Assembly (NCBI GenBank): GCA_029850515.1
Contig: JARCRW010000073.1
Coordinates: 1-35,182 of the forward strand
Length of the DNA: 35,182 bases
From: Nitrosotalea sp.
GTDB taxonomy: Archaea > Thermoproteota > Nitrososphaeria > Nitrososphaerales > Nitrosopumilaceae
Direction of reading: 5' to 3'
Under the pieces are notes generated by a model. That model was not told the origin of the DNA and searched no databases. It saw only the letters and a program-made list of their open reading frames with translations. The translations under genes and the position numbers were made by a program. Shown piece by piece: positions 2,445-22,158 of this stretch; the first letter of the stretch is position 1; each line of letters opens with the position of its first letter.

Positions 2445-2684
2445 TACATGATCAGGTATTAAAATAACATAATTTTTCCTAGAATCCATACGAGACACTG
2501 CATAAACAAAGCAGGCATATTTGAACAAAATATCGTCACCGCAAGCACAATACCTATACAGTAAAAGACAGCAATACAAAACTTTGAGAGGCGTTTCCAA
2601 TCACATCATAGAAAATTGAATTGAAAAATTCATGTTTCTCAGATTATGATTCTCATCAGGATAAAAAAAGAACATGTGAGTATG

Positions 2685-3056
2685 TTAGTCCTTATGCGTT
2701 TCTGAAATAATCCTTTTCAGTTTGGATTCCAGATCCTTCATGACTTCAGCGTCTTGCATCTTTGATTGCCAAATCTTTCCAAATGAATCCACAATTGCTT
2801 CTGCAGTCTTGTCAAGTGTAGGACCCATTGTAGCCTCTATCCTCTTCTTTATGTGTTCTACCTTAGCTTGATGCATAGCCTCAAAGAATGCATGTTTGTA
2901 CATTTTTGACATGTGTGATGAATCATGTCCACTGCCACACCCGCATTGACCATGAAAAGCCATCGGAGCACATCCGCAATATTCATGTGACGACATTGAG
3001 CCGCAACCTCCCGTGTGATGATGTTCCATTTTGCATGATTCGTCTTTACATTCCAT
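2685..3056 (-). CDS. Cys/His/Met-rich putative metal-binding small protein
   Basis: N-terminal about 50 aa MECKDESCKMEHHHTGGCGSMSSHEYCGCAPMAFHGQCGCGSGHDSSH, then a helical C-terminal domain. Confidence 0.6.
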   Translation of the reverse strand: MECKDESCKMEHHHTGGCGSMSSHEYCGCAPMAFHGQCGCGSGHDSSHMSKMYKHAFFEAMHQAKVEHIKKRIEATMGPTLDKTAEAIVDSFGKIWQSKMQDAEVMKDLESKLKRIISETHKD

Positions 3057-3317
3057 GTGGTTTTCATTATCTTGACACTTGTAGAGAACAGACTAAAATT
3101 CCAATATTGGTAATCATGATAGCATGTAAAATGCCACGAGTCAAATCTCCGTCAGGCAAGGTTAATCCACTCAAGGATGTGACATATGTGAATCAATTTT
3201 AATCAACAGTTAGATGGTCAGTATTGTCACATAGAAAAGAAGACCCGTCACATTGATTATCAAATCTGAAAATCTAAATTTGGTTTATAGTTATAGAAGC
3301 CTTGAGTAACATAGGAA

Positions 3318-3787
3318 GTGTACACACTGGAACTTGGTTTCTCAGACATTCTTAGCATAGCTCAAACAATCGGTATTGTTGGCTCTCTCGTAGTTGCGTC
3401 TTATTTCTCAAGACGAGAGATCAATCATTTATCAAGAGAATTTCGAACCCAAATTATCAGTGAGATTACCGATAAGATGCACCGCATAGGAGAGATAATG
3501 ATTGAGCATCAGATCTTTCAAAACTGATAAACCGGGTTGATCCACCAGAGCAAGTATTTGCAATTTACATCTTGTCAGTATACAACCAAGTATACAACCA
3601 AGCATACAACATGCACAAGTGAAAGCTGCTAAGTGATACAATTTGGTCTGGGTGGACACGGATGATACGAAGTAGTTTTCGAGACGGGACGATCGGCACA
3701 TACTGGAAAAAAATTAATGCGGACAGCAGATTCAGTTCTGATTTTAGACACTTTATCAACAACACAATAATCGCAAAACCCGATTAA
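3318..3787 (+). pseudogene. Decayed small membrane-anchored protein gene (one frameshift plus one in-frame TGA)
   Basis: Frame 0 from GTG 3318 gives MYTLELGFSDILSIAQTIGIVGSLVVASYFSRREINHLS...MIEHQ; from about 3508 the next frame continues LSKLINRVDPPEQVFAIYILSVYNQVYNQAYNMHK[TGA 3620-3622]KLLSDTIWSGWTRMIRSSFRDGTIGTYWKKINADSRFSSDFRHFINNTIIAKPD* ending at TAA 3785-3787. Confidence 0.7.
3583..3617. repeat. Short 12-bp tandem repeat (about 2.7 copies) within the pseudogene
   Basis: tatacaaccaag tatacaaccaag catacaacatg. Confidence 0.6.
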
Positions 3788-3869
3788 TCTAGATGTCTAT
3801 CCATTGCACATAATCAGAGTCATGTGTTTACAACTGGAACTTGCAAGAATATCATTATCAGAAATACAT

Positions 3870-5177
3870 TCATTTGGGTTTCATAAAACCCCATTTACCA
3901 AGTGCTTCTTTCAGTTCAGTATGAGCCATCGCATACTCCTGCAACGAGATTTTCTGCATTGTAGCATCAATTGCTTGCATCACAGCTTTTGCTCCAGATC
4001 TTGTTCCTTTAGGATGTCCATGAATTCCGCCGCTTACCAGTATTCCAATATCACTCCCAAGCGTATTCATAACAGCAGGTATCAATCCCGGATGCAGCCC
4101 CCCTGATGAAATAGGTAACACCGGTTTGAAATTATTCCAATCTTGAAAAAGCACCTTATAATTAATTTTCACACTTTTTTCCGGCAACACCTTGGCTGTA
4201 ATTTCATTTCTGATGTCAATAATTTCATCTCTACTTCCAACCAACTTGCCTACTGCCGTACCTATATGGATCTGATCAACCCCAACAAGTCTCATCATTT
4301 TCGCAAGAACCAACATTGTCATCCCATGTCGTGGATTCCTATCAAAAGCGGCGTGCATTGCCCTGTGAGCATGGATTGCAAGACCATATTCTTCACATGT
4401 CTCACGCAACGTCTGCACTGCAGACATTCCAGAGGTTACAACATCAATCATTGCATATTCCCATCCAAAATCATGTAACATCTTGGCTCGTTTCTCCATG
4501 AGTTTTGTCTCACCTGTTATGTTGATTAGCGCAGATTTTCTCTCCCCTGTTTCTTTTTCTGCTTTATCGCGCATTTTTGCGCAAAGTCTTATCCTATCCT
4601 CAAATCTGTTAAAAGAAGTCGAGGTAAGATTCTCGTCATCTTTGACCAAATCAAAACCGCCCATCCATGTCTCATAAGCTATCTGTGCGTGCTCACTGGC
4701 ACTCCAACCTATTTTTGGTTTTGCAACTGCACCCGTTATGGGCCTGTCTTTTATTTTCAGAATTTTTCTTATTCCTTCAATTCCAAATTGAGGACCTTCA
4801 AAGTGTTTCAAATATGCTTTAGGAATGGAAATATCAACGAGTCTCAAATTTTTCAGGGCCTTCATGCCAAAGATGTTTCCTGCAACGCCACTCAGTAGTT
4901 GCGAGGCATTACCTTCTTCCCACAACTCTATAGGATATGAAACTTTGACAAAATTTCCCCTTATTTCATAAGAAGTCGCCATCACTTTTTGTAGTCTTGA
5001 TGGAACCTTGTTTAGTGTAGTCCATGTTCCAGCTGAACTCTCCGACGCAATTCGTCCGACAGCTTCCTTGACGGAGATACCCCTGGCAGGTTCGAATCTA
5101 AATAGACAAACAATATCAGTCCTGGTTGGACGATAGTCCAAATCTACAAAATCTGAATACCAATCAATATTTTTCAT
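3870..5177 (-). CDS. rbcL: Ribulose-1,5-bisphosphate carboxylase/oxygenase, archaeal form III type
   Basis: TGAVAKPKIG (catalytic Lys), GGFDLVKDDENLTS (carbamylated Lys/Asp/Glu), HAHRAMHAAFDR, IHIGTAVGKLVG, ISSGGLHPG, SGGIHGHPKGTRSGA all present. Likely start is the ATG at 5177 (MKNIDWYSDFVDLDYRPTRTD) rather than ORF-track 5213. Confidence 0.95.
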   Translation of the reverse strand: MKNIDWYSDFVDLDYRPTRTDIVCLFRFEPARGISVKEAVGRIASESSAGTWTTLNKVPSRLQKVMATSYEIRGNFVKVSYPIELWEEGNASQLLSGVAGNIFGMKALKNLRLVDISIPKAYLKHFEGPQFGIEGIRKILKIKDRPITGAVAKPKIGWSASEHAQIAYETWMGGFDLVKDDENLTSTSFNRFEDRIRLCAKMRDKAEKETGERKSALINITGETKLMEKRAKMLHDFGWEYAMIDVVTSGMSAVQTLRETCEEYGLAIHAHRAMHAAFDRNPRHGMTMLVLAKMMRLVGVDQIHIGTAVGKLVGSRDEIIDIRNEITAKVLPEKSVKINYKVLFQDWNNFKPVLPISSGGLHPGLIPAVMNTLGSDIGILVSGGIHGHPKGTRSGAKAVMQAIDATMQKISLQEYAMAHTELKEALGKWGFMKPK

Positions 5178-6009
5178 ATAGCAGTTCCTTCTTGATTTTA
5201 TCTGGAGATACAATTCCTCGTTCTGTGATAACAGATGTTATCAATTCCCAAGGAGTAATATCGAATGCGGGATTTCTAATATCAATTCCGTTGATCTTTT
5301 CTTTATAGAGTATTTTCCTGAAAATCTCCTTGGCAGGTCTCTCTTCGATTTTGAAATTTTCTCTCCTATCAAGCTTGAGAGAGTTTGCAACTACGTAAAA
5401 TGGCTTATGGGCACTTGCTGCAGCACCTGCAAGCAGTCTAGTTCCAATCTTATTTACAAGACCTTCCAATCTAAGAGCATCGGCTCCCACTATTACCATA
5501 TCAACGCTTTTTATGAAATAACCCATAGCATTATCATCTATCAAAGTCACAGGTATGCCTTCCCGAGAAAGCTCTTTTGCTGTCAGTACTCCTTGTTCTT
5601 GTGGTTCAGTCAAGCATGCAATAACAGAAATTTTCTTCTGCTTTGTCCAAGAATGTTTGATAAACGACATGGCTTCCCCAGAATGACAATATGTCATTAT
5701 CACGTTTTTTGGATGTATCAGCCTACCCGAATATTTTGATTCTTTTTCTCTTGCAGTATTGATATTTTTTATAAGACGGTCTATTGTAGGTGTCTTTTTT
5801 TCTTTCTTTAGAATTTCAAGGCAATTATGTAATACCACTGCAGTTGGACGTACTTTTTCAAGATTCTTTACTGCATTTTCAAAATCTTTCTCAAAACCAT
5901 AACGTTTGACGTATTGTTTTAGAAAACAAAGGCCATAAATTGCAATCTCGTTTGCTCCTTGGACCTTAAAATTGCGAATGTCTTTAATGGCTTTTTGAAT
6001 ACTAGTCAT
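5164..6009 (-). CDS. Ribose-1,5-bisphosphate isomerase (eIF2B-alpha-like family)
   Basis: IF2B-family sequence with MTYCHSGEA (catalytic Cys) and IVGADALRLEGLVNKIGT (catalytic Asp); located between AMP phosphorylase and RuBisCO. Confidence 0.88.
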   Translation of the reverse strand: MTSIQKAIKDIRNFKVQGANEIAIYGLCFLKQYVKRYGFEKDFENAVKNLEKVRPTAVVLHNCLEILKKEKKTPTIDRLIKNINTAREKESKYSGRLIHPKNVIMTYCHSGEAMSFIKHSWTKQKKISVIACLTEPQEQGVLTAKELSREGIPVTLIDDNAMGYFIKSVDMVIVGADALRLEGLVNKIGTRLLAGAAASAHKPFYVVANSLKLDRRENFKIEERPAKEIFRKILYKEKINGIDIRNPAFDITPWELITSVITERGIVSPDKIKKELLYEKY

Positions 6010-6014
6010 GCAAG

Positions 6015-7559
6015 TTACCTATCAATTACAAAGGCTCTTTTTACAACGGGTGACTCTTTTATCTTGTGTATGAACATTTCTCTCCTTTCACCAACACCGA
6101 TAGGTTCCACCTCGGATAGCAAATCTTCAACTCTTGATAATTTCCGTGATTTTTCAGCATAAACAGTAAACAGTAAGTCACCAGTCCTTACCTTGTCATC
6201 TTGTTTTTTGTAAAGTACTATTCCCGCTCCTTTGTCTTTTGGAGAACCTGCAGCTCTTGCTATTTCCACAAGCAAGTTATTATCCATCCATAGAACCAGT
6301 CCAGATTTTTTAGATCTTACTTCTTTTACTTCCCCGCCTATTTGAAAATCGTCAAGACCAATTCTGGGGTTTCCTCCTTGTAGAGAAATTATCTCTCGCA
6401 TTTTCTTTTCTGCCTTGCCAGTACGTAGTATTTCTCTTGCAAAATGATAACCATTATCTTTTCCAACCATCTCAAATATTGAGCCTGCCAGGTGGCATGC
6501 TTTATCCACCAAGTCTGGAACATTGACTTTGTTCATCAAAACTGAAAGTGCCTCTCTAGCTTCAAGAGATGCACCTAGAGTATAGCCAACTGGCATTTCC
6601 CCATGAGTTACAACACATTGTGTATGTATGCCAAGCTTTCTTCCAAGTTCTATGAGATCCTTTGCTAGCAGATCAGCCTCGTTAATAGTCTTCATTTTTG
6701 CGCCTCTTCCAGTTGGTATATCTATTACAAGATGAGTAGCACCAACAGCTTTCTTTTTACTCATTATGGAAGGCAAAAGTAATGGATCAATGTATAACGA
6801 ATATTCAGTTTTGACAAATATGTCGTCAGCAGGAGCAAGTTCTAGTGAACCTCCCCACACAATACAACCATTACATTTTTTCACAATGCTTTCCATTTCT
6901 TCAATTCCCAAGTTTACAGGCATTATTGCCTCTGCTCTATCCGCTGTACCTGCAGCAGACGTAATTGCTCTTGATGATGCTTTTGGAATTGTGACGCCTG
7001 CAGCTGCCACGATTGGGACTACTAGTAATGTTGTCTTATCACCAGGTACACCGCCAATGCTGTGTTTATCTGCAATTATTTTTTTACGTAGATTCAATCG
7101 TTTTCCTGTCACCACCATAGAAGATGACAAACTCAGTGCCTCATCAAGATCAAGTCCCTGCATGTTAAGTGCAGTAACAAAGGCTGCAATCTCTCCTTCG
7201 TTGAGATTTCCTTCAACCACATCCTTTACTATTTCCAGAATTTCGTTGTAAAGCAATCTCTTTCCCATTAATTTGTGATGGATGAATTGGAGCGATTTTG
7301 GAAATGTTGCAATATCCACATCTACCACAGAGTTTTGCCGCAAAATCAGTTTCTTTTTTACTTCTTCATTTACTCCGACTATTCCCGCATTGACAGATGT
7401 TGTAGAAATGTTAACAATCGCAGTTATCTCTTTTTTGTTAAGACCTATCCTGACTCTTCCCGATGCAGTTACGCCTATTTCATCGGCGTCATGCTTGTTC
7501 AAGAATACAATTGGCTTTCCACCGGATTCTATACCTAAAATATCTACCCTAAACCGCAT
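6015..7559 (-). CDS. deoA: AMP phosphorylase (archaeal thymidine phosphorylase-like)
   Basis: N-terminal archaeal domain plus DKHSIGGVPGDKTTLLVVPIVAAAG, SSRAITSAAGTADRAE, VWGGSLELAPADD motifs. Confidence 0.92.
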   Translation of the reverse strand: MRFRVDILGIESGGKPIVFLNKHDADEIGVTASGRVRIGLNKKEITAIVNISTTSVNAGIVGVNEEVKKKLILRQNSVVDVDIATFPKSLQFIHHKLMGKRLLYNEILEIVKDVVEGNLNEGEIAAFVTALNMQGLDLDEALSLSSSMVVTGKRLNLRKKIIADKHSIGGVPGDKTTLLVVPIVAAAGVTIPKASSRAITSAAGTADRAEAIMPVNLGIEEMESIVKKCNGCIVWGGSLELAPADDIFVKTEYSLYIDPLLLPSIMSKKKAVGATHLVIDIPTGRGAKMKTINEADLLAKDLIELGRKLGIHTQCVVTHGEMPVGYTLGASLEAREALSVLMNKVNVPDLVDKACHLAGSIFEMVGKDNGYHFAREILRTGKAEKKMREIISLQGGNPRIGLDDFQIGGEVKEVRSKKSGLVLWMDNNLLVEIARAAGSPKDKGAGIVLYKKQDDKVRTGDLLFTVYAEKSRKLSRVEDLLSEVEPIGVGERREMFIHKIKESPVVKRAFVIDR

Positions 7560-7688
7560 ACATAATCATCATTTTATGCTGAATATATGGTCTAGATATA
7601 ATTCTCATCTTTGATTACAAATCATATACATTCAAGCCTTTTCGCAATATTTCTGATAACTTATTACAACTTCGTAACATATCCCATC

Positions 7689-8516
7689 ATGAACAAAAAA
7701 GCTATTTGGATCATCAAAGCAAACGGTACCCGGGTACCGTTTGACAAATACAAAGTAAAAACTACGTGTATTAGAGCAGGAGCAAACAGAAAAACGGCAA
7801 AGACAGTAGCAGAAAGGATAGGTCGGAAGGTAAAGGACGGTATGAAAACATCTGAAATTTACAAAATGGTTCTAGAAGCACTCAAAATTGAAGATGTGGG
7901 TAAGATAGCACATCACAAGTATAGACTCAAAGAATCGATCATGAGGATGGGACCTGCTGGATATAGCTTTGAAAATTATGTTGGTGAGATACTTCGAGAT
8001 TATGGTCACAATGTTCTCTTTACCAGAACAATAGAGCATGGCAAATGTGTAAAGCACGAAATTGATCTAGTTACAGAGATCATTTCCACGGGTGAAAAAT
8101 ACATAATTGAATGCAAATATCACAACATGTCTGGAATATACACAGGTCTCAAAGAATCATTGTACACACACGCTAGGTTCTTAGATCTAGATGACAAGTA
8201 TGATCATGAGATGCTAGTATGTAACACCAAATTATCGGATGATGCCATAACATACGCAAAGTGCATAGGTCAGCAGACAATTTCCTGGAGATATCCACCA
8301 AACAAAGGTCTTGAAAGCATGATTGAAGAAAAGGGCCTATATCCAGTAACAATTTTAGGATTAAACCGGTACGAACTTGAATCCCTATCAAGAAACAACA
8401 TGATGTTGATCAGAGATTTGGTAAAGTCAGATCTGAATATGTTATCCAGAGAAACTAGAATATCATACCAAAGATTACAAAGACTTCAGAATCTTGCCAC
8501 GCAAATTCTAGAGTAG
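7689..8516 (+). CDS. ATP-cone domain fused to PD-(D/E)XK restriction-endonuclease-like domain
   Basis: WIIKANGTRVPFDKYKVKTTCIRAGA (ATP-cone) followed by FENYVGEILRDYGHNV...HEIDLVTE...KYIIECKYH (nuclease core). ATG at 7689 preferred over ORF-track 7611. Confidence 0.75.
   Translation: MNKKAIWIIKANGTRVPFDKYKVKTTCIRAGANRKTAKTVAERIGRKVKDGMKTSEIYKMVLEALKIEDVGKIAHHKYRLKESIMRMGPAGYSFENYVGEILRDYGHNVLFTRTIEHGKCVKHEIDLVTEIISTGEKYIIECKYHNMSGIYTGLKESLYTHARFLDLDDKYDHEMLVCNTKLSDDAITYAKCIGQQTISWRYPPNKGLESMIEEKGLYPVTILGLNRYELESLSRNNMMLIRDLVKSDLNMLSRETRISYQRLQRLQNLATQILE
7720..7743. repeat. Perfect 24-bp palindrome inside the ATP-cone coding region
   Basis: caaacggtaccc|gggtaccgtttg is exactly self-complementary. 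Confidence 0.95.
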
Positions 8517-8621
8517 TATGTAAAAATACTCAAAGACATCAAAATGTTTCTAGATATCAAAGATTTCAAGACATTTGTGTACCGGATCGTGTGATTACAA
8601 GAACCGGGGGTAATGAATCTA

Positions 8622-9803
8622 CTACGCTGTTGTAGATCTGCCAGTTTTCTTTAAAGTTTGGAGATATTTTTGCCTCTCATTTGCCAGTTCCATAATGTCT
8701 GTTTTGCTTACTACTCCCAAAAGTTTACCCCCCTTGTCACATACAAAGACCTTTCCCACACGTTTCTGAACCATTTGTAAAAGAGATTTTTCAACTTCCA
8801 TGCCAGGTGACACAATTGCAAGATGTGTCGGTGAAATCATAATATCGTTGACTAGTACAGCATCTCTTTGATTTTCTGGGATACTCAATATGTCCTTCAG
8901 CGTGATCATCCCCAAGAGACGGCCTTGCTCATCCGTTACTGGGAGTTCACTCTTCATACTTGTCATAAAAAAATTAATGAGTGTAAAACCAACAGATGCA
9001 TCCTGTTTAACAGATATTATTTTTGTGTTCATGATGCTATCCACTATTATTCCTCTCAGTGTAGAAGTCAGCTCAAATTGTGACATGTATGACTTGGCGC
9101 CGTCGTGTAAGAACCAACCTATCAGAACTATCCACAAACCTCCGATAAAATCACCTTTGAAAAGCGACACAAACCCAAATCCCATGAACAGGTATGATAT
9201 GATCACGCCTATGGTTGTTGCAATCTTTGTTGCTTCATGATAATCCCTTTTCCATCGTACCAATCCTGCCCGTAAGACCCTTCCACCATCAAGAGGAAAT
9301 GCAGGAATTAGATTGAATGCGCCCAGCATTACATTAGCAATTGCCCCATAGAACAAGATGCCTTTGATTTGTTCAAGATATACAACAGTATTACCAGAAT
9401 TTGGGACACTTTGTAAAACTAACCAATAGAAAAAAGTAAAAATCGCACCCAATCCAAAGCTTGTAAGAGGGCCTGCAATAGACATCTTAAATTCCTGATG
9501 AAAATCCTTTGGCTCCCTTGCAATGTCTGAGACTCCTCCGAAAATAAATAATGTAATACTCTTTACCGGTATATCATATCGTTTTGCAATAATTGAATGT
9601 GCCAACTCATGAAGCAAAATGGAGAAAAATAAAAATACAGTTGCCACTGAACTCATGATCCAGTAATCCGCAGATGTTAGACCTTTGACATAGTCAGGCA
9701 TAAAATATGTAGAAAGTGTCCAATCTATTAGAAAAAATGTTATAATCAGTGTAAAATGTAAGCGAATACTAATTCCTTTGATGTGGCCTACTTGAAAAGA
9801 CAT
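8622..9803 (-). CDS. Membrane site-2-type zinc metalloprotease (M50) with C-terminal CBS pair
   Basis: HELAHSIIAKRY zinc motif, NLIPAFPLDGGRVLRA motif, several TM segments, CBS-like repeats (IMNTKIISVKQDAS; IMISPTHLAIVSPG). ATG at 9803 overlaps the upstream TAA. Confidence 0.9.
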   Translation of the reverse strand: MSFQVGHIKGISIRLHFTLIITFFLIDWTLSTYFMPDYVKGLTSADYWIMSSVATVFLFFSILLHELAHSIIAKRYDIPVKSITLFIFGGVSDIAREPKDFHQEFKMSIAGPLTSFGLGAIFTFFYWLVLQSVPNSGNTVVYLEQIKGILFYGAIANVMLGAFNLIPAFPLDGGRVLRAGLVRWKRDYHEATKIATTIGVIISYLFMGFGFVSLFKGDFIGGLWIVLIGWFLHDGAKSYMSQFELTSTLRGIIVDSIMNTKIISVKQDASVGFTLINFFMTSMKSELPVTDEQGRLLGMITLKDILSIPENQRDAVLVNDIMISPTHLAIVSPGMEVEKSLLQMVQKRVGKVFVCDKGGKLLGVVSKTDIMELANERQKYLQTLKKTGRSTTA

Positions 9804-11932
9804 TATACCGCACACTTCTCATGACTTGATTTTACCTTCTCAAATGCCTTTTGAAAATCATCCTGCGTTATCTTGATTGTTTTTACATCCTTTCCCTTCT
9901 TGTCTACATATTGCCTTACTGCAGACATTGCAGCTCTGTTGCACATGGATTCAATTTCTGCTCCACTGTATCCATCTGTTTGTTCCACAAGTTTTTTAAA
10001 ATCCAAATTTGCAGTCAAGGGTTTCTTTTTTGTATGGATTTTAAAGATGTTTTCACGCCCTTTCTTGTCTGGCAATGGTACTTCAATTATGATGTCAAAC
10101 CTGCCAGGTCTGAGAAGAGCAGCATCAACAATATCCAGCCTATTGGTGGCACCAATCACAATCACATCATGTAGTTCTTCCAATCCATCAATCTCTGTTA
10201 AAATTTGGGATACCACCCTTTCTGTAACATTAGAATCTGAACCACCTGATCCCCTGCTTGGTGCAAGTGAATCTATTTCGTCTAGAAATATTATACAAGG
10301 AGCTGCTTGGCGCGCCTTTCTGAAAACTTCTCTTATTCCTTTTTCTGATTCACCTACCCATTTGGATAATAATTCAGGACCCTTTATGCTGATAAAGTTA
10401 GATTCCGTAGTACTTGCAACCGCCTTTGCAATGAGTGTCTTACCTGTTCCAGGCGGACCATACATGAGTATTCCCTTGGGTGATGCAATATCTGCATACG
10501 CAAATGCTTCTGCATGCTTCATTGGCCATTCAACAGCTTCGCGTACCTCCTCTTTTAGAGAATCCAATCCACCTACATCATCCCATGCAACATCTGGAAC
10601 CTGTACCAGTACCTCACGCAACGCAGATGGCCTTACTTCTTTTAATGCTTCCTTGAAATCATCGTCTGTGATCACAATTTTTTGCAAAATTTCTGAAGAT
10701 ATTTTTTCTTCCTCCAGATCAAGTTTTGGTAGCATTCTTCTTAACGACCTCATGGCAGCTTCCTTTGCAAGAATTTCCAAATCTGCACCAACAAATCCAT
10801 GTGTTACTTTTGCAATCCGTTCCAGGTTGACTTTCTTGTCAAGTGGCATTCCACGTACATGGATGTTCAATATTTCTCTCCTTCCGGTCTCGTCAGGTAT
10901 TCCAATTTCAAATTCTCGGTCAAATCTTCCCGGCCTTCTTAATGCAGGATCTATTGAATCAGGTCTGTTTGTTGCTGCAATTACAACAACTTTACCTCTT
11001 GATTTCATCCCATCCATTAATGTAAGTAACTGCGAAACTATTCTTTTTTCAAGCTCCCCTGTAACCTCTTCTCTTTTAGGAGCAATGGAGTCTATCTCAT
11101 CTATGAAAATTATGCTTGGTGCGTTCTCTTCGGCTTGCTTGAATATCTCTCGAAGTCTTTCTTCACTTTCGCCATAATGTTTAGCCATGATCTCAGGTCC
11201 GCTAAGAGAGATAAAATGTGAATTTGTTTCTCCGGCTACAGCTTTTGCAAGCAAAGTCTTTCCAGTACCAGGTGGGCCGTATAAGAGCACGCCCTTGGGT
11301 GCATCCACGCCCAATTTTTCAAACAATTCAGGATGTCGCATTGGGAGTTCAACCATCTCTCGGATTTTCTGGACTTCTTTTTTTAGACCACCTAGATCGT
11401 CGTAGGTAATCCTTGGAACCGATTTATCCATGGCTTTGGCCATTGCACCCAGTTTGAACTCCGTCGATTCAGATACTATTACAGGCTTTGATGGAGGTGT
11501 AGTACTTGCAACAATGAGTTGGGTTTTGCCACCAAGATGAGTGCTGACTATTAATGTGTCACCAGTGGTTAAAACATGACCATCATAATTTTCCTGCATG
11601 TATTCTTGCAATCCTTCCTCACTTATTTTTTCAACGGGTGATAAAACTATGCGTTGTGCTTCTTTCACATCCACCTGTTTTACCGATATTCGTTCTCCAA
11701 TGCCTGATCCAATATTATACCTAGTCAATCCGTCAATCCGGATTACCCCAGTTCCATAATCTTCTGGTGAGCCAGGCCATAACCTTACATGACTTTTTTT
11801 GTTTCCCACAATTTCTAGCACTTGGCCTCCGGTCCACTGATTATCATCAACTACTTTAGGATCTACAATGCCAATTCCATTTCCCACATATCGCTGCGGT
11901 ACTTCTGCAATTTTTAAAACAACTTCGCCCAT
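9803..11932 (-). CDS. Cdc48/p97-type AAA+ ATPase with two AAA domains
   Basis: Cdc48 N-domain, two Walker A (GPPGTGKTLLAKAVA, GPPGTGKTLIAKAVA), two Walker B (IIFIDEIDSIAPKR, IIFLDEIDSLAPSRG). Confidence 0.95.
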   Translation of the reverse strand: MGEVVLKIAEVPQRYVGNGIGIVDPKVVDDNQWTGGQVLEIVGNKKSHVRLWPGSPEDYGTGVIRIDGLTRYNIGSGIGERISVKQVDVKEAQRIVLSPVEKISEEGLQEYMQENYDGHVLTTGDTLIVSTHLGGKTQLIVASTTPPSKPVIVSESTEFKLGAMAKAMDKSVPRITYDDLGGLKKEVQKIREMVELPMRHPELFEKLGVDAPKGVLLYGPPGTGKTLLAKAVAGETNSHFISLSGPEIMAKHYGESEERLREIFKQAEENAPSIIFIDEIDSIAPKREEVTGELEKRIVSQLLTLMDGMKSRGKVVVIAATNRPDSIDPALRRPGRFDREFEIGIPDETGRREILNIHVRGMPLDKKVNLERIAKVTHGFVGADLEILAKEAAMRSLRRMLPKLDLEEEKISSEILQKIVITDDDFKEALKEVRPSALREVLVQVPDVAWDDVGGLDSLKEEVREAVEWPMKHAEAFAYADIASPKGILMYGPPGTGKTLIAKAVASTTESNFISIKGPELLSKWVGESEKGIREVFRKARQAAPCIIFLDEIDSLAPSRGSGGSDSNVTERVVSQILTEIDGLEELHDVIVIGATNRLDIVDAALLRPGRFDIIIEVPLPDKKGRENIFKIHTKKKPLTANLDFKKLVEQTDGYSGAEIESMCNRAAMSAVRQYVDKKGKDVKTIKITQDDFQKAFEKVKSSHEKCAV

Positions 11933-12094
11933 GATTTACTCACAATAGATATCTTTTTGTTTTCCAATTAAAAAATGACATGGTTGATTCTCCGAGATGA
12001 TATTCACCTATCTCATTAAATCTCACATTATGCATAACTTGATTTACAAGTTTTCGTTAAAAGCGAGGATCTACATTTACGGTAAATCTTTGTC

Positions 12095-12877
12095 CTAAAT
12101 AATTATCGCATCCATCTGATATGCGTCTACAATATCTCTTGCTGTAACAATCCCCGAAAGAGAGTCATTTTCTGTCAATCCCAATCTTTTAATTTTTTTT
12201 GACGCCATGATGTTTGCAGCTTCATTTGCCAAAATTCCTCTCTTTGCGGTAACAAGTGGAAATGATGAATGCGGTCCCACCTTGCTTTTCAAGTCTACTT
12301 CTTTTTCAAGAACTCGGACCAGATCTCGTTGTGTGAATATTCCATATAGTGAATTATGTGTTACCAGCACACTGCCAATATTTTTTTCATCAAGCATCTT
12401 CGCAGCATCTAAAATCGTAGTGTCATATGGACAATGATATACTATTGTGCTGGTGACTTTTTCCAGGCTTGGAGCTTTATCTGTTTCCCTAAATGCCCTC
12501 ATCATATCAGATGCAGTGATGGTTCCTACTAGTTTGTCAGTATCGGCAAATACCAAAATCCTTGACTTTTTAGATATCATCAATCTTGCAGCCTCAATAA
12601 TAGTAGTATCAGGTGTAACGGAAACAAAGGGTTGGATGAATTCCTGTTTTACGCTTTGGTCCATGTTTTTTTCTCCAGATACAACATGTCTGACAATTCC
12701 TCTTTCTGTGAATATTCCAATGGGCATGAGGCTGTCTTCCTCCATCACAATCAAGGTGGCAAACTTGTTGTCTGCCATAAAGCTAACAACAGTCTTGAAT
12801 GGAACAGATGGTTTTACTGAAATCGGATACTCTGACATGTAATTACCAACTAAAAGTTCAGTTATTTTCAATCCCAT
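12095..12877 (-). CDS. Multi-CBS-domain protein (four CBS motifs)
   Basis: Repeated CBS signatures: SVKPSVPFKTVVSFMADNKFATLIV, SVTPDTTIIEAARLMISKKSRILVF, PYDTTILDAAKMLDEKNIGSVLV, ILANEAANIMASKKIKRLGL. Confidence 0.85.
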   Translation of the reverse strand: MGLKITELLVGNYMSEYPISVKPSVPFKTVVSFMADNKFATLIVMEEDSLMPIGIFTERGIVRHVVSGEKNMDQSVKQEFIQPFVSVTPDTTIIEAARLMISKKSRILVFADTDKLVGTITASDMMRAFRETDKAPSLEKVTSTIVYHCPYDTTILDAAKMLDEKNIGSVLVTHNSLYGIFTQRDLVRVLEKEVDLKSKVGPHSSFPLVTAKRGILANEAANIMASKKIKRLGLTENDSLSGIVTARDIVDAYQMDAIII

Positions 12878-12995
12878 GTATCTAAAGATATTATTCCTAG
12901 TATTTTACTTGAATGATTAAATATCAAAAGTGATAACATGATAAATTTGATACTACAAAAGCAATAGATGGCCTTAGAGAATCCCGAAATGATCT

Positions 12996-13427
12996 CTATT
13001 TTATTACAAGAACAGGAACTTTGGATTTATGAATAGTAGAGTTTGCAACACTTCCAAGAAACATCTCTCGGACTGCGCCATGACCACGATGTCCTATTAC
13101 TACCAGATCAAACTTGTGTTTGTTAGAAAAATTGACAATGTCTTCAGTCGGTATACCATAAATTATTTTTTGATTAAACACTATTCCATTTTGTGCCGCT
13201 TTTATTTTGGCATCATCTAAAAACTTTTTAGCATCTTTTGTCATTTTTGACCTGAAGGAACTAGTCAATCCCGGCATTGCAAGAGGTGAATAAATAGGCA
13301 CTACACACAACCCGGTGACAGTAGAATGACACTGTCTTGCAAGATAAATTGCGTAATCAAATCCTTTGAAAGAATTTTTTGATCCATCAAGAGATACCAA
13401 TATTTTGTTAATTTCAAGTCCCTTCAA
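12996..13427 (-). CDS. Universal stress protein (UspA family)
   Basis: ILVSLDGSKNSFKGFDYAIYLA and LVVIGHRGHGAVREMFLGSVANSTIHKSKVPVLVIK; TTG start. Confidence 0.92.
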   Translation of the reverse strand: MKGLEINKILVSLDGSKNSFKGFDYAIYLARQCHSTVTGLCVVPIYSPLAMPGLTSSFRSKMTKDAKKFLDDAKIKAAQNGIVFNQKIIYGIPTEDIVNFSNKHKFDLVVIGHRGHGAVREMFLGSVANSTIHKSKVPVLVIK

Positions 13428-13601
13428 TTACATTTCTTGTTTTTCAGCCCCATCTATAATGATTTGTTCTAATAGACCAAATATTTCACCTTCTTGAACT
13501 GAGAAACTTACATCATCAACGGCTCCGACATTACCATGATAAATTTTTGTTAGATTCTTTACCTCTATCGCATTTTTGTTTTCAAATTTGTTAGAATCCA
13601 T
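13428..13601 (-). pseudogene. ABC transporter ATPase remnant lacking Walker A and everything after it
   Basis: 57-codon ORF not in the track: MDSNKFENKNAIEVKNLTKIYHGNVGAVDDVSFSVQEGEIFGLLEQIIIDGAEKQEM*. The beginning matches ABC-ATPase N-termini (IEVKNLTKIY...AVDDVSFSVQEGEIFGLL), then diverges where GPNGAGKTT is expected. Confidence 0.7.
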
Positions 13602-13776
13602 AACTCAAGACTTCTTTTCCATGATATGTATCTTCATTTAAAAACTAGAAGCGGAAGAGAACTTTCCCTAATGCATTTGTTCAAAATCAGAAAAAATAGA
13701 TCAAAATTTGCAGTGTGTATCAAAACTAGTTATTGTGCTACAAAAGACATTATTTACAAACCTAGAAAAATTTAGT

Positions 13777-14076
13777 CTACTGAGATACTACTTCATAAAA
13801 CGTTGGCTTTGGTAGGCCGTCCATGAAAGAGTGACCCTTTGATTGGATTCTAAAATGTTCTTGTGTTTTGTGCATTGCTTCAAACTTTGCCTGGGTTTCA
13901 AACTCCACCAGAATCACATGCTTGCCACTACGTGTTTCCAGCAGTCGCCTTCTTACAAAGCCATCAAATTTTGAGAGATCAGCATTAGATTCAGATATCC
14001 AGTTTTTGAACTCGTCTTCGGAGCCCTTTTTGATTTGAATTTCTGCTGAAACTACAAACATATGCTTGAACGGCAA
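13777..14076 (-). CDS. Antibiotic biosynthesis monooxygenase (ABM)-like small protein
   Basis: Ferredoxin-like ABM pattern: FVVSAEIQIKKGSEDEFKNWISESNADLSKFDGFVRRRLLE...HVILVEFETQAKFEAMHKTQEH. Confidence 0.65.
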   Translation of the reverse strand: MPFKHMFVVSAEIQIKKGSEDEFKNWISESNADLSKFDGFVRRRLLETRSGKHVILVEFETQAKFEAMHKTQEHFRIQSKGHSFMDGLPKPTFYEVVSQ

Positions 14077-14194
14077 TTATACGAATAATAATATTTCTAA
14101 GATTATCATGCACGGTAAGTCGCATGTATCTAAATGGTACCAGATTCAACGTAGACTCAATAATTCTAAATAACGGAGCAATTCGATCAAAGAT

Positions 14195-14458
14195 ATGAAT
14201 GAGAAGCTCCTAGCATATGGATCAATCATTGCAGCCATAGTGATAATGTCAACTATTGTGTTTCCATTTTGGAATCTGATTCCATCCATGGTTACAGAAA
14301 AGGCCAAAGTTGTATATTTAGAAGGAGGCGGTAAATGTACCGTAGAAACAAGTGATGGTTTTAACATACCCGGTATTCCTTGCAACAATGCAAAGGTAGG
14401 AGACAACATCACTGCGACATATGACGTAAAGGTAAAAGACAGAGAAAGTAAAATATAA
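14195..14458 (+). CDS. Hypothetical single-TM/exported small protein
   Basis: MNEKLLAYGSIIAAIVIMSTIVFPFW hydrophobic N-terminus, extracytoplasmic beta-rich tail with two Cys. Confidence 0.5.
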   Translation: MNEKLLAYGSIIAAIVIMSTIVFPFWNLIPSMVTEKAKVVYLEGGGKCTVETSDGFNIPGIPCNNAKVGDNITATYDVKVKDRESKI

Positions 14459-14462
14459 CAGA

Positions 14463-14819
14463 CTAGAGAAGTTTTAGATCCTTTGTAACTTTATCAATCA
14501 TTTCTTCCGGGGCAGGACCTATTGATATGCATGTCACAGTTCCAGGCTCTATCTGAGTATGACCTGCATCAGTAACCTCAGACCAAGGCAGATCATGTGA
14601 TATCGCATCACGTTTTATTTTTTCAAGCTCTGACATGCTAGATACTTTAACAACAACTTTTTCTTGCCCATATCGCTCCCACTGATCAAACCATTCTCTT
14701 TTTGATTTTCTCACATGCTCAGCTCCCAAAACACATGCGTGGCCTACCTGTGCCGCAATCTTTCCAGTACCCATCCCTAAATCTTTTCTTACAACAATTA
14801 CCTGCTTGATGGTACCCAT
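14463..14819 (-). CDS. pth2: Peptidyl-tRNA hydrolase 2
   Basis: KQVIVVRKDLGMGTGKIAAQVGHACV...VTDAGHTQIEPGTVTCISIGPAPEEMIDKVTKDLKLL. Confidence 0.93.
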   Translation of the reverse strand: MGTIKQVIVVRKDLGMGTGKIAAQVGHACVLGAEHVRKSKREWFDQWERYGQEKVVVKVSSMSELEKIKRDAISHDLPWSEVTDAGHTQIEPGTVTCISIGPAPEEMIDKVTKDLKLL

Positions 14820-14935
14820 ACTAATTTGGAATTACATTAGGACATGTTAAACTTTTGAATCATCATGTTTAACAAAAAAAGATTGTTTGATTTTCATATT
14901 ATATCCATAAATAACGGTAGTATTTTACTAGATAC

Positions 14936-15076
14936 ATGCCAGGTATGAAATGTGTATCATGCGGGATTGGATTCTTTTCTGCCACTGGTTCAGACAAATG
15001 TTCCAAGTGTTCAGACAAGGGCAATCATGAAGCCGCAGCAAGTCATGACTCTTGTGGTTGCGGTCATAGCCACTAA
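14936..15076 (+). CDS. 46-aa zinc-ribbon-like Cys/His-rich protein
   Basis: Below ORF-track cutoff: MPGMKCVSCGIGFFSATGSDKCSKCSDKGNHEAAASHDSCGCGHSH*; two CxxC motifs and CGCGHSH tail. Confidence 0.6.
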   Translation: MPGMKCVSCGIGFFSATGSDKCSKCSDKGNHEAAASHDSCGCGHSH

Positions 15077-15159
15077 CCCATTTTTTCTTACCATAAAACA
15101 AAACCGGGTTTTTTCAAATCCGTATTGAATTAATAGTGTATACATAGAAAATAAGAAAC

Positions 15160-16296
15160 ATGGATTACGATGCAGTCATAGCAGGTGGAAGTGTTGCTGG
15201 ACTCTTGTGTGCTAGAGAGATTGCAAGCAAGAATCATCGGGTCCTAGTGATAGAAGAAGACGCGGAACTTGGAACTCCAGAACACTGCGGTGGAGTAGTC
15301 AGCATCCCTGCAATAGATGACTTGGGCATCATACCAATGAGGGCCACACTTGACAACAAGATACGCTCTGCAAAGATAGTGTCACCATCTGGAAAAGATT
15401 TTACAATTGATGCAAGGCAGCAACAAGTCATAGTCTTGGACAGGCGAGAATTTGACAAGCAGATTGCACATCAGGCTCAGGTCAAGGGAGCTGAAATTAG
15501 AGTAAGAACATCATTGCGAGAGATTACAAAAGAAGGAGTGCGAACATCAGATGGTGAGATAAAGTGCAAATTTGTTGTAGATGCAAGAGGTGTGACATCT
15601 CTTGTTCAAAAAGACAGAACCGGTATTCTCCAGTCAGCACAATACGAGGTATTTGCAGACTGGATAGACAAGGAAAGAATCGAGGTCTATTTAGATCAAG
15701 AAAAATATCCAGGATTTTTTGCATGGGTCATACCCACTAGAAGAGATGAGGCCAAAATAGGAGTGGCTGGAAGAGGAATCAACCCAGCACAAGCAATCGA
15801 GGAATTCCTCAAGAAGAAAGGAAAACATTCCATCATTAGAAAAATATTTGCTCCAATTTGGATCAAAGGGCCAATCAAAGAATTTGTCACAGGAAATGTC
15901 ATAACAATAGGTGATGCGGCAGGACAGGCCAAGCCCACAACCGCGGGAGGAATCTATTCGTCAGGAATTGGAGGCATGTTTGCAGGCAATGCGATTTCCA
16001 AGTTCTTGGAATCTGGAAATAGATCAGAACTAGCAGAATATCAAAAAAAGTGGAACAAAAAATTTGGTAGGGAGTTTGAGAATATGCTTCTTGCTCGCTC
16101 CCTCCTTGAGAGAATGGACAATAAAACAATCGACTCGATATTTGACTCGATAACACCAAAGATACTTGATGAAATATCAAAAGAAGGAAATTTTGATTTT
16201 CATACCACGTCAGTTGCCAAGCTACTGGGTGTAAGAGGATCTGTCAAGGCAGTACAAGCAATTCTTGGAAATGAATTGAGAAGATTGCTGAGCTGA
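15160..16296 (+). CDS. Geranylgeranyl reductase family flavoprotein
   Basis: DYDAVIAGGSVAGLLCAREIASKNHRVLVIEED FAD motif; VITIGDAAGQAKPTTAGGIYSSGIGG GGR motif. Confidence 0.92.
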   Translation: MDYDAVIAGGSVAGLLCAREIASKNHRVLVIEEDAELGTPEHCGGVVSIPAIDDLGIIPMRATLDNKIRSAKIVSPSGKDFTIDARQQQVIVLDRREFDKQIAHQAQVKGAEIRVRTSLREITKEGVRTSDGEIKCKFVVDARGVTSLVQKDRTGILQSAQYEVFADWIDKERIEVYLDQEKYPGFFAWVIPTRRDEAKIGVAGRGINPAQAIEEFLKKKGKHSIIRKIFAPIWIKGPIKEFVTGNVITIGDAAGQAKPTTAGGIYSSGIGGMFAGNAISKFLESGNRSELAEYQKKWNKKFGREFENMLLARSLLERMDNKTIDSIFDSITPKILDEISKEGNFDFHTTSVAKLLGVRGSVKAVQAILGNELRRLLS

Positions 16297-16346
16297 GTCA
16301 AAATTGATAAGCAAGGTATAAATTCAGTAGAAATCGAGTTTTAATC

Positions 16347-16526
16347 ATGTCATCAACAATAGCATTACCTGTCTGCAGTTCTTGTCACAGACCAATAATG
16401 CCTAACGATAAGTGTGTAAAATTCAATTGCCCAAGTTGTGGCTCTGTATTACTCTGGAGATGTGAGAGTTGTAGAGAAGCAGCAAGACCATACAAATGCA
16501 ATTCATGCACATTTGAAGGACCTTAG
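16347..16526 (+). CDS. Small zinc-ribbon protein with four CxxC-type motifs
   Basis: Below ORF-track cutoff: MSSTIALPVCSSCHRPIMPNDKCVKFNCPSCGSVLLWRCESCREAARPYKCNSCTFEGP*; resembles archaeal HVO_2753-like zinc finger proteins; next to aEF1-beta. Confidence 0.8.
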   Translation: MSSTIALPVCSSCHRPIMPNDKCVKFNCPSCGSVLLWRCESCREAARPYKCNSCTFEGP

Positions 16527-16529
16527 AAA

Positions 16530-16811
16530 TTGGCACGACTCTCACTTAGAGCAAAAATTCTCCCAACCGGAACTGAAATAAATCTAGACGATATTGCAAA
16601 AAAGATCACCGTATCACTAAAAGAAGGTATCACACTTTCAAAATATACAAAAGAGCCGCTTGCTTTTGGCCTCTATTTTCTTAATGCAGAGTTTGCCCTA
16701 GATGACAAGGAAGGCCAAATGGATTCTCTTGAAAACGCAGTACGTTCAATTGAGGGAGTTGGAGAATTCGAAGTACTAGGCTTGAGCAGAACATCTGTTG
16801 ATATGAAGTAG
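16530..16811 (+). CDS. Translation elongation factor 1-beta (aEF1B)
   Basis: ARLSLRAKILPTGTEINLDDIAKKI...KEPLAFGLYFLNAEFALDDKEG...VEFEVLGLSR-like pattern. Confidence 0.88.
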   Translation: MARLSLRAKILPTGTEINLDDIAKKITVSLKEGITLSKYTKEPLAFGLYFLNAEFALDDKEGQMDSLENAVRSIEGVGEFEVLGLSRTSVDMK

Positions 16812-16819
16812 GTATCAAC

Positions 16820-18988
16820 TTGGTAAAAAAAGACGAACTGCTACAAATGCGGGTCGGCGAAGCAAAACAAAGAGACGTTGGAAAAAGACGAGCCAGAATA
16901 GAACCAGAGGCAATGGAATTTTTAAAAGTAGAAGCAGGTGACATGGTTGAAATCATTGGAAAAAGATCAAGTTGTGCAGTAGTTTGGCCTGCAGATGACG
17001 ACAACAAGACACCAGATGTCATTCGAATAGATGGTCAAACAAGAAAAAATGCAGGAGTTGGAATCAACGACTTGGTAAATGTGAAAAAGATAACAGCCAA
17101 GCCTGCCAAGACTGTAACTTTGATGCCAGTAAACGGAAATGTTACAGTTGACAAGGAGTTTACAGATTTTGTAAAAAACAGACTACGCGGTTTACCACTT
17201 TCTGAAGGCGATGAAATATCAGTAATGATTCTAGGAAACTCGATGGATTTCAAGATTCACAAGATCTCACCAAAAGCTGTTGTAAAAATAGAACGAAGCA
17301 CTTCGGTTACCATACTTACTGAGACATCAATTGATAAAAAAGTTAGAGTTACATTTGATGAAATAGGTGGTCTTAAGACACAGACAAAAAGAATGCGGGA
17401 AATTGTTGAGCTGCCATTGAAACACCCCGAAGTTTTTACAAGACTCAATGTAGAGCCACACAGTGGAATATTGTTGTACGGTCCTCCAGGATGCGGAAAG
17501 ACATTGATTGCAAAAGTACTAGCAAGTGAATCAGAGGCAAATTTTTACTCAATCAACGGTCCAGAAATAATGAACAAGTATTACGGAGAGACAGAGGCAA
17601 GATTACGAGATATTTTCAAAGAGGCAAAAGAAAATTCACCAAGCGTAATATTCATTGATGAAATTGACGCAATCGCCCCAAAAAGAGAGGAAGCATATGG
17701 TGATGTGGAAAAAAGAGTAGTGGCCCAGCTATTAGCCTTGATGGACGGTCTAAATGACAGAGGAAATGTAATAGTCCTTGGTGCAACAAACAGACCAGAA
17801 AGTGTAGACCCTGCTTTGCGAAGACCAGGTAGGTTTGACAGAGAGATTGAGATCACAGTACCAAATGCAGACGGTAGGCTTGAGATACTACATATCCATA
17901 CGCGCGGCATGCCGCTTCAAGATGTAGACCTCAAAATACTTGCTGCAGAATTACACGGATATACTGGAGCAGACATCAAATCATTATGCAGAGAAGCTGC
18001 AATGAAAGCCCTCAGAACATTCTTGCCAGAGATTGAAAACGAGAATGAAAAGATAGCGCCAGATGTATTAGAAAAGATGAGGATAACATTACAGGACTTT
18101 TACGATGCAATGCATGAAATCGTGCCAACTGCCATGCGCGAATTCTATGTTGAGAGTCCAAAAGTATGGTGGAAGGAAGTGGGCGGATTGGATGATGCAA
18201 AAAGAACTCTAGAGGACAACTTGATCACTGCAATAAAAGAGCCAGCCAAATTCCAAAAGATGGGAATCAAACCTCCAAAGGGCGCATTATTGTATGGCCC
18301 ATCAGGATGTGGAAAGACATTGCTTGCACGAGCTCTTGCAACAGAGAGTGGTGCAAACATGATACTTGTAAGAGGACCAGAGATACTGTCAAAATGGGTC
18401 GGAGAATCAGAAAAAGCAATTAGGGAGATCTTCAGAAAAGCAAAGACATCGTCACCATGCATAATAATATTTGATGAACTTGACTCACTTGCTCGCTTCA
18501 AATCAAATGAGGAAGGTGGTATTGGAGAGAGACTGCTCAGTCAGCTTCTTACAGAGATGGAAGACGGAGGCGCTTCAAGAGTCGTGGTACTAGGAATTTC
18601 AAACAGACCAGATCTTATCGATCCATCACTAATACGACCTGGCAGACTGGATCTAATGATCTTCGTTCCACCGCCAGATGAAAAGGGTCGATTTGAGATA
18701 ATCAAACTATTAACAAAACAGATGCCACTTTCTGGGGACATTAACTTGAAAGAGATAGCAGTAGCAACAAAAGGATATAGTGGAGCAGATCTTGTTGCAA
18801 TATGCAGGGAATCTGCAGTAAATGCCATGCGAAACAATAGTCAAAAAATAAGTAGCACAGACTTTTCTTCTGCACTCAAAAACGTCAAGCCGTCAATTAC
18901 AAAGGGAGTTGAAGACTGGTACTCCACAGTTAAAGATAATATATCATATGCATTACCAAAACCAATGGACAAGGCATTTTACGGATAG
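16820..18988 (+). CDS. Second Cdc48-type AAA+ ATPase (two AAA domains)
   Basis: Walker A GPPGCGKTLIAKVLA and GPSGCGKTLLARALA; Walker B VIFIDEIDAIAPKR and IIIFDELDSLARF; TTG start. Confidence 0.92.
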   Translation: MVKKDELLQMRVGEAKQRDVGKRRARIEPEAMEFLKVEAGDMVEIIGKRSSCAVVWPADDDNKTPDVIRIDGQTRKNAGVGINDLVNVKKITAKPAKTVTLMPVNGNVTVDKEFTDFVKNRLRGLPLSEGDEISVMILGNSMDFKIHKISPKAVVKIERSTSVTILTETSIDKKVRVTFDEIGGLKTQTKRMREIVELPLKHPEVFTRLNVEPHSGILLYGPPGCGKTLIAKVLASESEANFYSINGPEIMNKYYGETEARLRDIFKEAKENSPSVIFIDEIDAIAPKREEAYGDVEKRVVAQLLALMDGLNDRGNVIVLGATNRPESVDPALRRPGRFDREIEITVPNADGRLEILHIHTRGMPLQDVDLKILAAELHGYTGADIKSLCREAAMKALRTFLPEIENENEKIAPDVLEKMRITLQDFYDAMHEIVPTAMREFYVESPKVWWKEVGGLDDAKRTLEDNLITAIKEPAKFQKMGIKPPKGALLYGPSGCGKTLLARALATESGANMILVRGPEILSKWVGESEKAIREIFRKAKTSSPCIIIFDELDSLARFKSNEEGGIGERLLSQLLTEMEDGGASRVVVLGISNRPDLIDPSLIRPGRLDLMIFVPPPDEKGRFEIIKLLTKQMPLSGDINLKEIAVATKGYSGADLVAICRESAVNAMRNNSQKISSTDFSSALKNVKPSITKGVEDWYSTVKDNISYALPKPMDKAFYG

Positions 18989-18990
18989 AT

Positions 18991-19305
18991 ATGGCCATCC
19001 CACTACGAAATACCATATATGAAAAGATCAAGATTGCGGGGTCTCTTACCGATTCAGATCTATCAAAATCTCTCATCAAGGCAGGCATCTCAATTCCAGA
19101 AGACGAGTTCAACAAGACTCTTCTCAACCTAGAGATTTATGGCTTGATCAAAGTAACTTGGTTAACAAAAGATGAGCGTAGAATAGAGATATCTGAAAAA
19201 GAAGAAGATGAAGATGAGATAGAAAAACAAAACATGGAAAACTTGGAAAAAGAATACGAGTCAGGATTTCCAGGTGTTGGACAAGAAGAAGAGATTCAAG
19301 AATAG
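18991..19305 (+). CDS. Winged-helix-like small protein with acidic C-terminal tail, downstream of Cdc48
   Basis: NTIYEKIKIAGSLTDSDLSKSLIKAGISIPEDEFNKTLLNLEIYGLIKVTWL wHTH-like; EKEEDEDEIEKQ tail; 2-nt gap from the Cdc48 stop. Confidence 0.65.
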   Translation: MAIPLRNTIYEKIKIAGSLTDSDLSKSLIKAGISIPEDEFNKTLLNLEIYGLIKVTWLTKDERRIEISEKEEDEDEIEKQNMENLEKEYESGFPGVGQEEEIQE

Positions 19306-20187
19306 TTACTTTATCACTGGAAAGTGAAATGCCGCATCAAGTGCAATTCCTACAAATATTATTGTAAGATATGGCGCAGTAACCTTGTACGCTTTCCATG
19401 CAAAATCTGAGGTGGGAGTCTTGGTAAGCTTGTAATGGTAAACCAACATGAGGCCCCCTGATACCAAGGCAACTCCGAGATACACGTATCCCAATCCAAA
19501 TGCAACAAGTGCAATAGAATATGGCAGTAGTATTGCTGTGTTGAGCAGAATGTACTTGGAGGTCTTTTGCATGCCAATCAATACTGGAAGCATTGGGACC
19601 TTTGCTTCAGCATAATCATCTCGTATTTTCATCGCAAGGCACCAAAAATGAGAAGGCGTCCACACAAAGACTAGCATACCAACCAATGCCCCAAGAATAT
19701 CCATGGAACCAGTTGCTGCAGCCCAGCCTGCCATAGATGCACAGCTTCCAGCAAAACCACCAATTACAATGTTTGACCAGTTATTTCGTTTAAGCCAGAC
19801 AGTATAGATAATCACATAGAAAAATATCCCAAGTGCAATAAAGAACGTGGATATAGGATTTAGTGTAAACCAAGCATAAATCACTGAAATACAACTAACT
19901 GCAAGACCATAGACAAGTACACTACGAGCAGCCATTCTTCCAGATGGGATCGGTCTTGTGCTGGTTCTTTTCATTAATGGATCAATGTCTCTATCGTAGA
20001 AATGATTCAGAGCACTAGAACCTGCAGACGAAAGCGCACCTGCCACTATCAGATGTAAGAGTACAATATTGTCAAGAGGTTTGTGTGCGATCAATATGCT
20101 TGCTGCATACATCGAGGTTACTGCAGTAATGACAAGTAAAACTATGATTCGCGGTTTAGATACTTCAAGTACTTCCTTTAATCCCAC
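19306..20187 (-). CDS. ctaB: Protoheme IX farnesyltransferase (heme O synthase)
   Basis: SKPRIIVLLVITAV, NHFYDRDIDPLMKRTSTRPIPSGR, WTPSHFWCLAMKIRDDYAEAKVPMLPV. Confidence 0.95.
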   Translation of the reverse strand: MGLKEVLEVSKPRIIVLLVITAVTSMYAASILIAHKPLDNIVLLHLIVAGALSSAGSSALNHFYDRDIDPLMKRTSTRPIPSGRMAARSVLVYGLAVSCISVIYAWFTLNPISTFFIALGIFFYVIIYTVWLKRNNWSNIVIGGFAGSCASMAGWAAATGSMDILGALVGMLVFVWTPSHFWCLAMKIRDDYAEAKVPMLPVLIGMQKTSKYILLNTAILLPYSIALVAFGLGYVYLGVALVSGGLMLVYHYKLTKTPTSDFAWKAYKVTAPYLTIIFVGIALDAAFHFPVIK

Positions 20188-20266
20188 GGATCTAAGCTGA
20201 TTTGCAGGGAATTTAATTTCTTCGAAGATTGTCCCACAGGTTCAAAAGAATTAAGTATGTCACCTC

Positions 20267-21373: not shown

Positions 21374-21783
21374 CAACACCAAAGGCAATAATTTTTTCAA
21401 AGAACCAAATAGAGACACTAAAAAAATACTCGGAACAAAACTCTCCAAATGAGGCATGTGCAATTTTGTTTGGCAATAATACAGATGAACAGGTCATAAT
21501 AAAAGAAATTTTTCTTGCAAAAAATATTGACGAGTCACCAGTAAATTTTACCATTTCAAATGAGGAACTAATAGCAGCATATGGCAGTGCAGAGAAGATG
21601 AAGCTAGATGTCAGTGGGATATTTCATTCCCATCCAGTCTCTGTTCCACATCCTTCGTCGACAGACAAGAAATACATGGAAATCAATCCCATACCATGGG
21701 TTATCTTCTCAAACATAAATGACGAATTCAAGGCGTATATTTACAATTCAGGGATCATCCAGATTCCCGTGAAGGTATTGTGA
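21370..21783 (+). CDS. JAMM/MPN (Mov34) metalloprotease
   Basis: NEACAILFG plus GIFHSHPVSVPHPSSTDKK = HxHx7Sx2D; ATG at 21370 overlaps the upstream TGA (ATGA). Confidence 0.88.
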   Translation: MTTPKAIIFSKNQIETLKKYSEQNSPNEACAILFGNNTDEQVIIKEIFLAKNIDESPVNFTISNEELIAAYGSAEKMKLDVSGIFHSHPVSVPHPSSTDKKYMEINPIPWVIFSNINDEFKAYIYNSGIIQIPVKVL

Positions 21784-21785
21784 AT

Positions 21786-21890
21786 CTATTTTTTGTGAAC
21801 TTTTTTGTGTCGTTCAAAGTGCTCTTTATCTGTAAAAATAGTGTCACAGTCCTTGCATTTTAGTTCGGTTTTAGCGCCCCACAACGGCAA
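21786..21890 (-). CDS. 34-aa C2H2 zinc finger microprotein
   Basis: Below ORF-track cutoff: TTG-start MPLWGAKTELKCKDCDTIFTDKEHFERHKKVHKK*; C-x2-C-x12-H-x3-H. Confidence 0.65.
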   Translation of the reverse strand: MPLWGAKTELKCKDCDTIFTDKEHFERHKKVHKK

Positions 21891-22137: not shown

Positions 22138-22158
22138 CCCTTTTTTCGAATAGCAATT

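Follow-up and report, generated by a model that had tools for sequence, protein, structure and literature searches.

The window examined here, a stretch of 35,182 nucleotides from a member of the genus Nitrosotalea, is one contig of a 1.70-Mb assembly that is 99.6% complete. Its minus strand carries three co-directional genes, for an AMP phosphorylase, a divergent homolog of ribose-1,5-bisphosphate (R15P) isomerases and a form III RuBisCO large subunit, with a 5-nt gap between the first two and a 14-nt overlap between the last two, just as a sequence-only reading of this DNA had described (Table 1). The RuBisCO gene starts with the ATG at 5177, the mechanically derived open reading frame extending upstream to a TTG at 5213, and is the only RuBisCO gene in this genome. 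A chance arrangement of the three genes is excluded, because nine further species of the genus have the identical set and order. To judge from the coordinates, the promoter of the operon probably lies in the gap separating it from a divergently read ATP-cone gene.

Table 1. Features of the operon and its surroundings in the window
Feature	Coordinates	Strand	Description and basis
AMP phosphorylase	6015-7559	-	514 aa; first gene of operon; TIGR03327 and PDB 4ga5 matches
Isomerase, divergent (Gln-type) R15P isomerase homolog	5164-6009	-	281 aa; middle gene; PF01008
Form III RuBisCO large subunit	3870-5177	-	435 aa; last gene; TIGR03326, residues, tree
Putative operon promoter region	7560-7691		132-bp gap between operon and divergently read ATP-cone gene; coordinates only
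ATP-cone/AF1548-like protein, Mrr-like nuclease match	7692-8516	+	Pfam; neighbor, divergent from operon
Segment absent from the closed chromosome of relative G005	2606-7802		blastn collinearity

Both outer genes pass the corresponding NCBIfam equivalog models. The AMP phosphorylase scores 562 bits against TIGR03327 (AMP_phos, cut-off 535), and its best PDB match is the archaeal phosphorylase 4ga5 (E 2e-123); the RuBisCO scores 592.5 bits against TIGR03326 (rubisco_III, cut-off 497.45). In an alignment of 60 RuBisCO sequences, the carbamylated-lysine motif KDDE, KPK, the loop-6 Lys311, H271, R272, H275, H304 and SGG358-360 are all present, and the active-site positions checked are invariant except for one that is either Val or Ile. 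The score and the residues bear out the earlier assignment to form III with complete catalytic residues, and lead us to reject a form IV or RuBisCO-like protein. The first glycine of the GGG P1-phosphate loop is replaced by Ser382, which might be taken as a sign of active-site decay; this was rejected because the same replacement occurs in 44 of the 60 sequences and is usual in the clade, including the RuBisCOs of Methanomicrobiales whose genomes bear phosphoribulokinase (PRK).

Elsewhere in the assembly are an archaeal amoA (353 bits) and a gene for an HpaB_N domain protein of the 4-hydroxybutyryl-CoA-dehydratase family (322 bits). The host is thaumarchaeal, as had been supposed, and the accompanying suggestion of a non-canonical, possibly heterotrophic lineage is unsupported, since these two genes fit an ammonia oxidizer and amoA was found in most operon bearers: nine of ten in the genus (not in G032), one of two in the sister genus g24 and both in g44, a genus of a second family. 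A single pathway is credited with CO2 fixation in ammonia-oxidizing archaea, and the best explanation is that the host is a soil ammonia oxidizer (Ca. Nitrosotalea) that fixes the bulk of its CO2 by a route other than RuBisCO. The earlier remark that no PRK, which a Calvin cycle requires, is visible was supported as well, the host genome yielding only a 43-residue match below the cut-off and the 11 operon-bearing genomes of ammonia-oxidizer lineages that were searched yielding none above it. Positions 1-2605, 7803-8790 and 13739-23366 align at 89-93% DNA identity with the closed chromosome of G005; this collinearity of the flanks rejects a contaminant contig and places the operon in genuine DNA of the genus. 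Farther along the window, at 26965-32177, lie the NAD-precursor genes nadC, nadA and aspartate dehydrogenase, followed by genes for proline dehydrogenase and aldehyde dehydrogenase.

A divergent clade of isomerases

The middle gene passes the broad TIGR00524 model (195 against a cut-off of 186) and fails the R15P-isomerase equivalog TIGR00511 by 120 bits (193.8 against 314.1), with five clade mates scoring 174-213 against the same cut-off. The active site is kept, Cys108 and Asp177 being equivalent to Cys133 and Asp202 of the Thermococcus kodakarensis enzyme, together with Asn186-Lys187, Arg54 and Gln139; Asn62, Ser110 and Lys212 are the residues that, in the alignment compared, separate R15P isomerases from methylthioribose-1-phosphate (MTR1P) isomerases, MtnA. 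The N-terminal R-G-A motif reads Q-G-A, Gln17 standing in place of Arg20 (T. kodakarensis numbering, used hereafter for the clade). This glutamine is found in all 34 members of the clade (14 from ammonia oxidizers and 20 from DPANN archaea), whereas all canonical R15P isomerases and MtnA sequences in the comparison have Arg at this position, and most members of the clade have also lost Arg160, usually to Glu. Each of the 34 retains Cys133, Asp202, Asn212, Lys213, Arg63 and Gln164 as well as the markers Asn71, Ser135 and Lys238 that set R15P isomerases apart from MtnA. The conservation of the motif suggests that Arg20 contacts a phosphate. The catalytic Cys and Asp pointed out in the sequence-only reading are thus in place, but a canonical R15P isomerase identity does not hold, given the TIGR00511 result and the missing invariant Arg; likewise, the salvage operon stands, but to call the pathway from AMP to 3-phosphoglycerate "complete" overstates the case for an isomerase outside the curated R15P family. 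We found no published description of the Gln-type clade in the limited open-access literature consulted, and the divergent isomerase marks a clear gap in annotation that is open to testing.

The isomerase tree sets the Gln-type clade apart both from MtnA (100/100) and from the canonical R15P isomerases. The AlphaFold model of the window protein (pLDDT 90) has R15P isomerases as its first 13 Foldseek matches in the PDB, with TMq up to 0.88, foremost among them the substrate-bound enzyme of T. kodakarensis. One could propose that the gene encodes an MTR1P isomerase or an aIF2B-like binding protein, which would leave the pathway incomplete, and the failure against TIGR00511, the Arg20 to Gln change and the usual Arg160 to Glu change are in line with such a proposal. 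It appears unlikely, however, because the discriminating Asn, Ser and Lys are those of R15P isomerases and not of MtnA, the clade stands apart from MtnA in the tree, the active-site Cys and Asp are invariant within it, and seven operon-bearing genomes keep a separate full-length MtnA-like gene. The isomerase as a replacement for MtnA is rejected by the same seven genomes and by four near-complete genomes that have neither an intact operon nor any match. In the genome of the window no separate MtnA-like isomerase was detected, while most relatives have one and several lack one.

Relationships and gene order across lineages

On one side of a branch with 100/95 support in the RuBisCO tree stand the ammonia-oxidizer sequences, along with those of Aenigmatarchaeota and other DPANN, Methanoperedens and Methanomicrobiales; the 11 RuBisCOs of non-ammonia-oxidizing Nitrososphaeria fall on the opposite side of it. 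Inheritance of the RuBisCO of family f1 together with these non-ammonia-oxidizing relatives was rejected by the AU test (p = 0.00033); a single origin, with all ammonia-oxidizer RuBisCOs including those of g44 held together, was not (p = 0.058). Of the genomes tested for PRK, all three from Methanomicrobiales had a match above cut-off, and those from ammonia oxidizers, Aenigmatarchaeota and Methanoperedens had none. The window enzyme shares a supported clade, and Ser382, with the form III-a RuBisCOs of Methanomicrobiales (Kono 2017, PMC5241800), yet its host lacks the PRK above cut-off that their genomes carry, and some published Aenigmarchaeota RuBisCOs have been labeled III-b. The clade thus mixes PRK-linked and AMP-linked use, and the choice between III-a and III-b is not a decisive one for this enzyme.

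The ammonia-oxidizer isomerases branch inside the DPANN diversity, with 100/98 support for a group that has one DPANN member within it and weaker support deeper in the tree (81/69), and for 14 of the 20 DPANN Gln-type genes a RuBisCO gene is no more than 1.5 kb away. DPANN archaea (Aenigmatarchaeota, PMC8407114) resemble the window in having the closest isomerase clade, near RuBisCO kin and linked RuBisCO and AMP phosphorylase genes; they differ in their small-genome hosts and in gene order, which is isomerase, RuBisCO, AMP phosphorylase in two Aenigmatarchaeota and in genus g44. In Nitrosotalea the order is AMP phosphorylase, isomerase, RuBisCO, and in g24 the isomerase and RuBisCO genes are followed by that of AMP phosphorylase on the opposite strand. 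That linkage of the three genes was retained despite such rearrangement supports a common pathway.

Lateral transfer is the likely source of the ammonia-oxidizer operon, as the RuBisCO and isomerase trees place its genes with those of DPANN and methanogen lineages and not with those of non-ammonia-oxidizing Nitrososphaeria. The position of the isomerases favors DPANN as donor, although the direction is not proven, and the AMP phosphorylase tree resolved no donor. As a tentative and rather doubtful extension, the Gln-type isomerases may be a new subfamily that is linked to RuBisCO and recognizes phosphate in an altered way, and DPANN archaea, which may be symbionts of the recipients, would have supplied ammonia oxidizers of two families with the CO2-incorporating module as a whole. 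The trees point to an exchange of genes between nitrifiers and DPANN archaea.

Distribution, loss and selection within the genus

Among 37 genomes of the genus (most of the genomes surveyed being metagenome assemblies), ten species have the intact three-gene set, always in one order; a contig break divides the set in G017 and G023, and no partial set with intact genes was found. Absence elsewhere does not just reflect missing data, as only seven of the 19 genomes that are at least 90% complete carry the operon. In G013 a relic remains between the neighbors seen in carriers, with residues 1-77 of the AMP phosphorylase fused to RuBisCO from about residue 221 and two stops; in G010 a C-terminal piece of the AMP phosphorylase, interrupted by three stops, is a probable relic. 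In the closed G005 genome the segment listed in Table 1 is precisely deleted, joining the sequences on either side and removing the whole operon and the first codons of the ATP-cone gene, the remainder of which is split into three pieces. The intact copies are under purifying selection, with dN/dS of 0.05-0.16 for nearly all pairs and 0.21 for the isomerase in one close pair, values that are approximate where dS is near 1. A reading of the operon as a functionless passenger in decay, to which its patchy presence, the G005 deletion, the fused relic in G013 and the probable one in G010 might point, is highly improbable in view of this constraint, which persists in intact copies even at dS near 1. 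The operon is thus accessory, useful enough in some species for selection to maintain it while others can dispense with it, and it has probably been lost repeatedly. Carriers and near neighbors without this optional module make natural pairs for testing the role of archaeal RuBisCO in an aerobic autotroph.

Several other features of the region vary among species. The ATP-cone gene is found in all 12 genomes of the genus with an operon or relic and in seven of the 25 others, and adjoins the operon in four genomes of the window's subclade and in g44. A Cys/His-rich 123-aa open reading frame, possibly metal-binding (2685-3056, minus strand), was lost with the operon in G005. A second segment absent from G005, close to the first (8790-13739; M50-CBS protease, CDC48-type AAA ATPase and CBS protein), makes the region look deletion-prone. 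Two CDC48-type AAA ATPases (9803-11932, minus strand, and 16820-18988, plus strand), 5 kb apart, are about 45% identical, and of a small 143-aa protein (12996-13427, minus strand) other species of the genus have several diverged copies close to the operon.

Proposed pathway and known systems

The operon is likely to specify the salvage route known from archaea as the AMP (pentose bisphosphate) pathway, here an accessory module that an ammonia oxidizer has acquired laterally. AMP phosphorylase would convert AMP and Pi to adenine and ribose-1,5-bisphosphate, the divergent eIF2B-fold isomerase would turn the latter into ribulose-1,5-bisphosphate, and the form III RuBisCO would carboxylate this to two molecules of 3-phosphoglycerate destined for gluconeogenesis, with a net addition of one CO2 per ribose as in Thermococcus. 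The curated matches of the outer genes, the conserved residues, the linkage, the low dN/dS, the lack of PRK and the host genes speak for this route; the TIGR00511 failure, the lost invariant Arg, the dispensability implied by frequent loss and an aerobic host that would expose RuBisCO to O2 speak against it.

Alternatively, the RuBisCO might be fed mainly by ribose-1,5-bisphosphate from the breakdown of PRPP or from other pools, with AMP phosphorylase acting separately in nucleotide turnover. Such a source was proposed for N. bavarica (Herbold 2017, PMC5767755), and in Gagatemarchaeaceae the RuBisCO and R15P isomerase genes adjoin one for ribose-phosphate pyrophosphokinase (PMC10640624). We regard it as improbable here, since in every ammonia-oxidizer copy the AMP phosphorylase gene is physically linked to its two partners, and no PRPP synthetase was identified beside the operon among the window genes checked. 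The evidence for PRPP feeding, for another isomerase substrate and for decay is in each case weaker than that for AMP salvage.

The AMP pathway of T. kodakarensis (Sato 2007; Aono 2015; summarized in PMC9700705) shares all three reactions with the proposed route, and its enzymes are homologous; the window differs in its Gln-type isomerase, compact operon, diverged RuBisCO and ammonia-oxidizing host. No AMP phosphorylase has been identified in the RuBisCO-bearing heterotrophic marine thaumarchaea (PMC7300363). The present finding is partly known, as RuBisCO and AMP phosphorylase were reported in the genus in 2017: in Ca. Nitrosotalea bavarica SbT1, very probably bearing the same operon, a type III RuBisCO adjoins AMP phosphorylase, PRK is missing and AMP salvage was suggested (Herbold 2017, PMC5767755). 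The isomerase candidate in that study was a THI4-related homolog of MJ0601, said to need proof, whereas in the window the two genes flank an eIF2B-fold isomerase; and what was there a species-specific gene is here part of a set carried by ten species.
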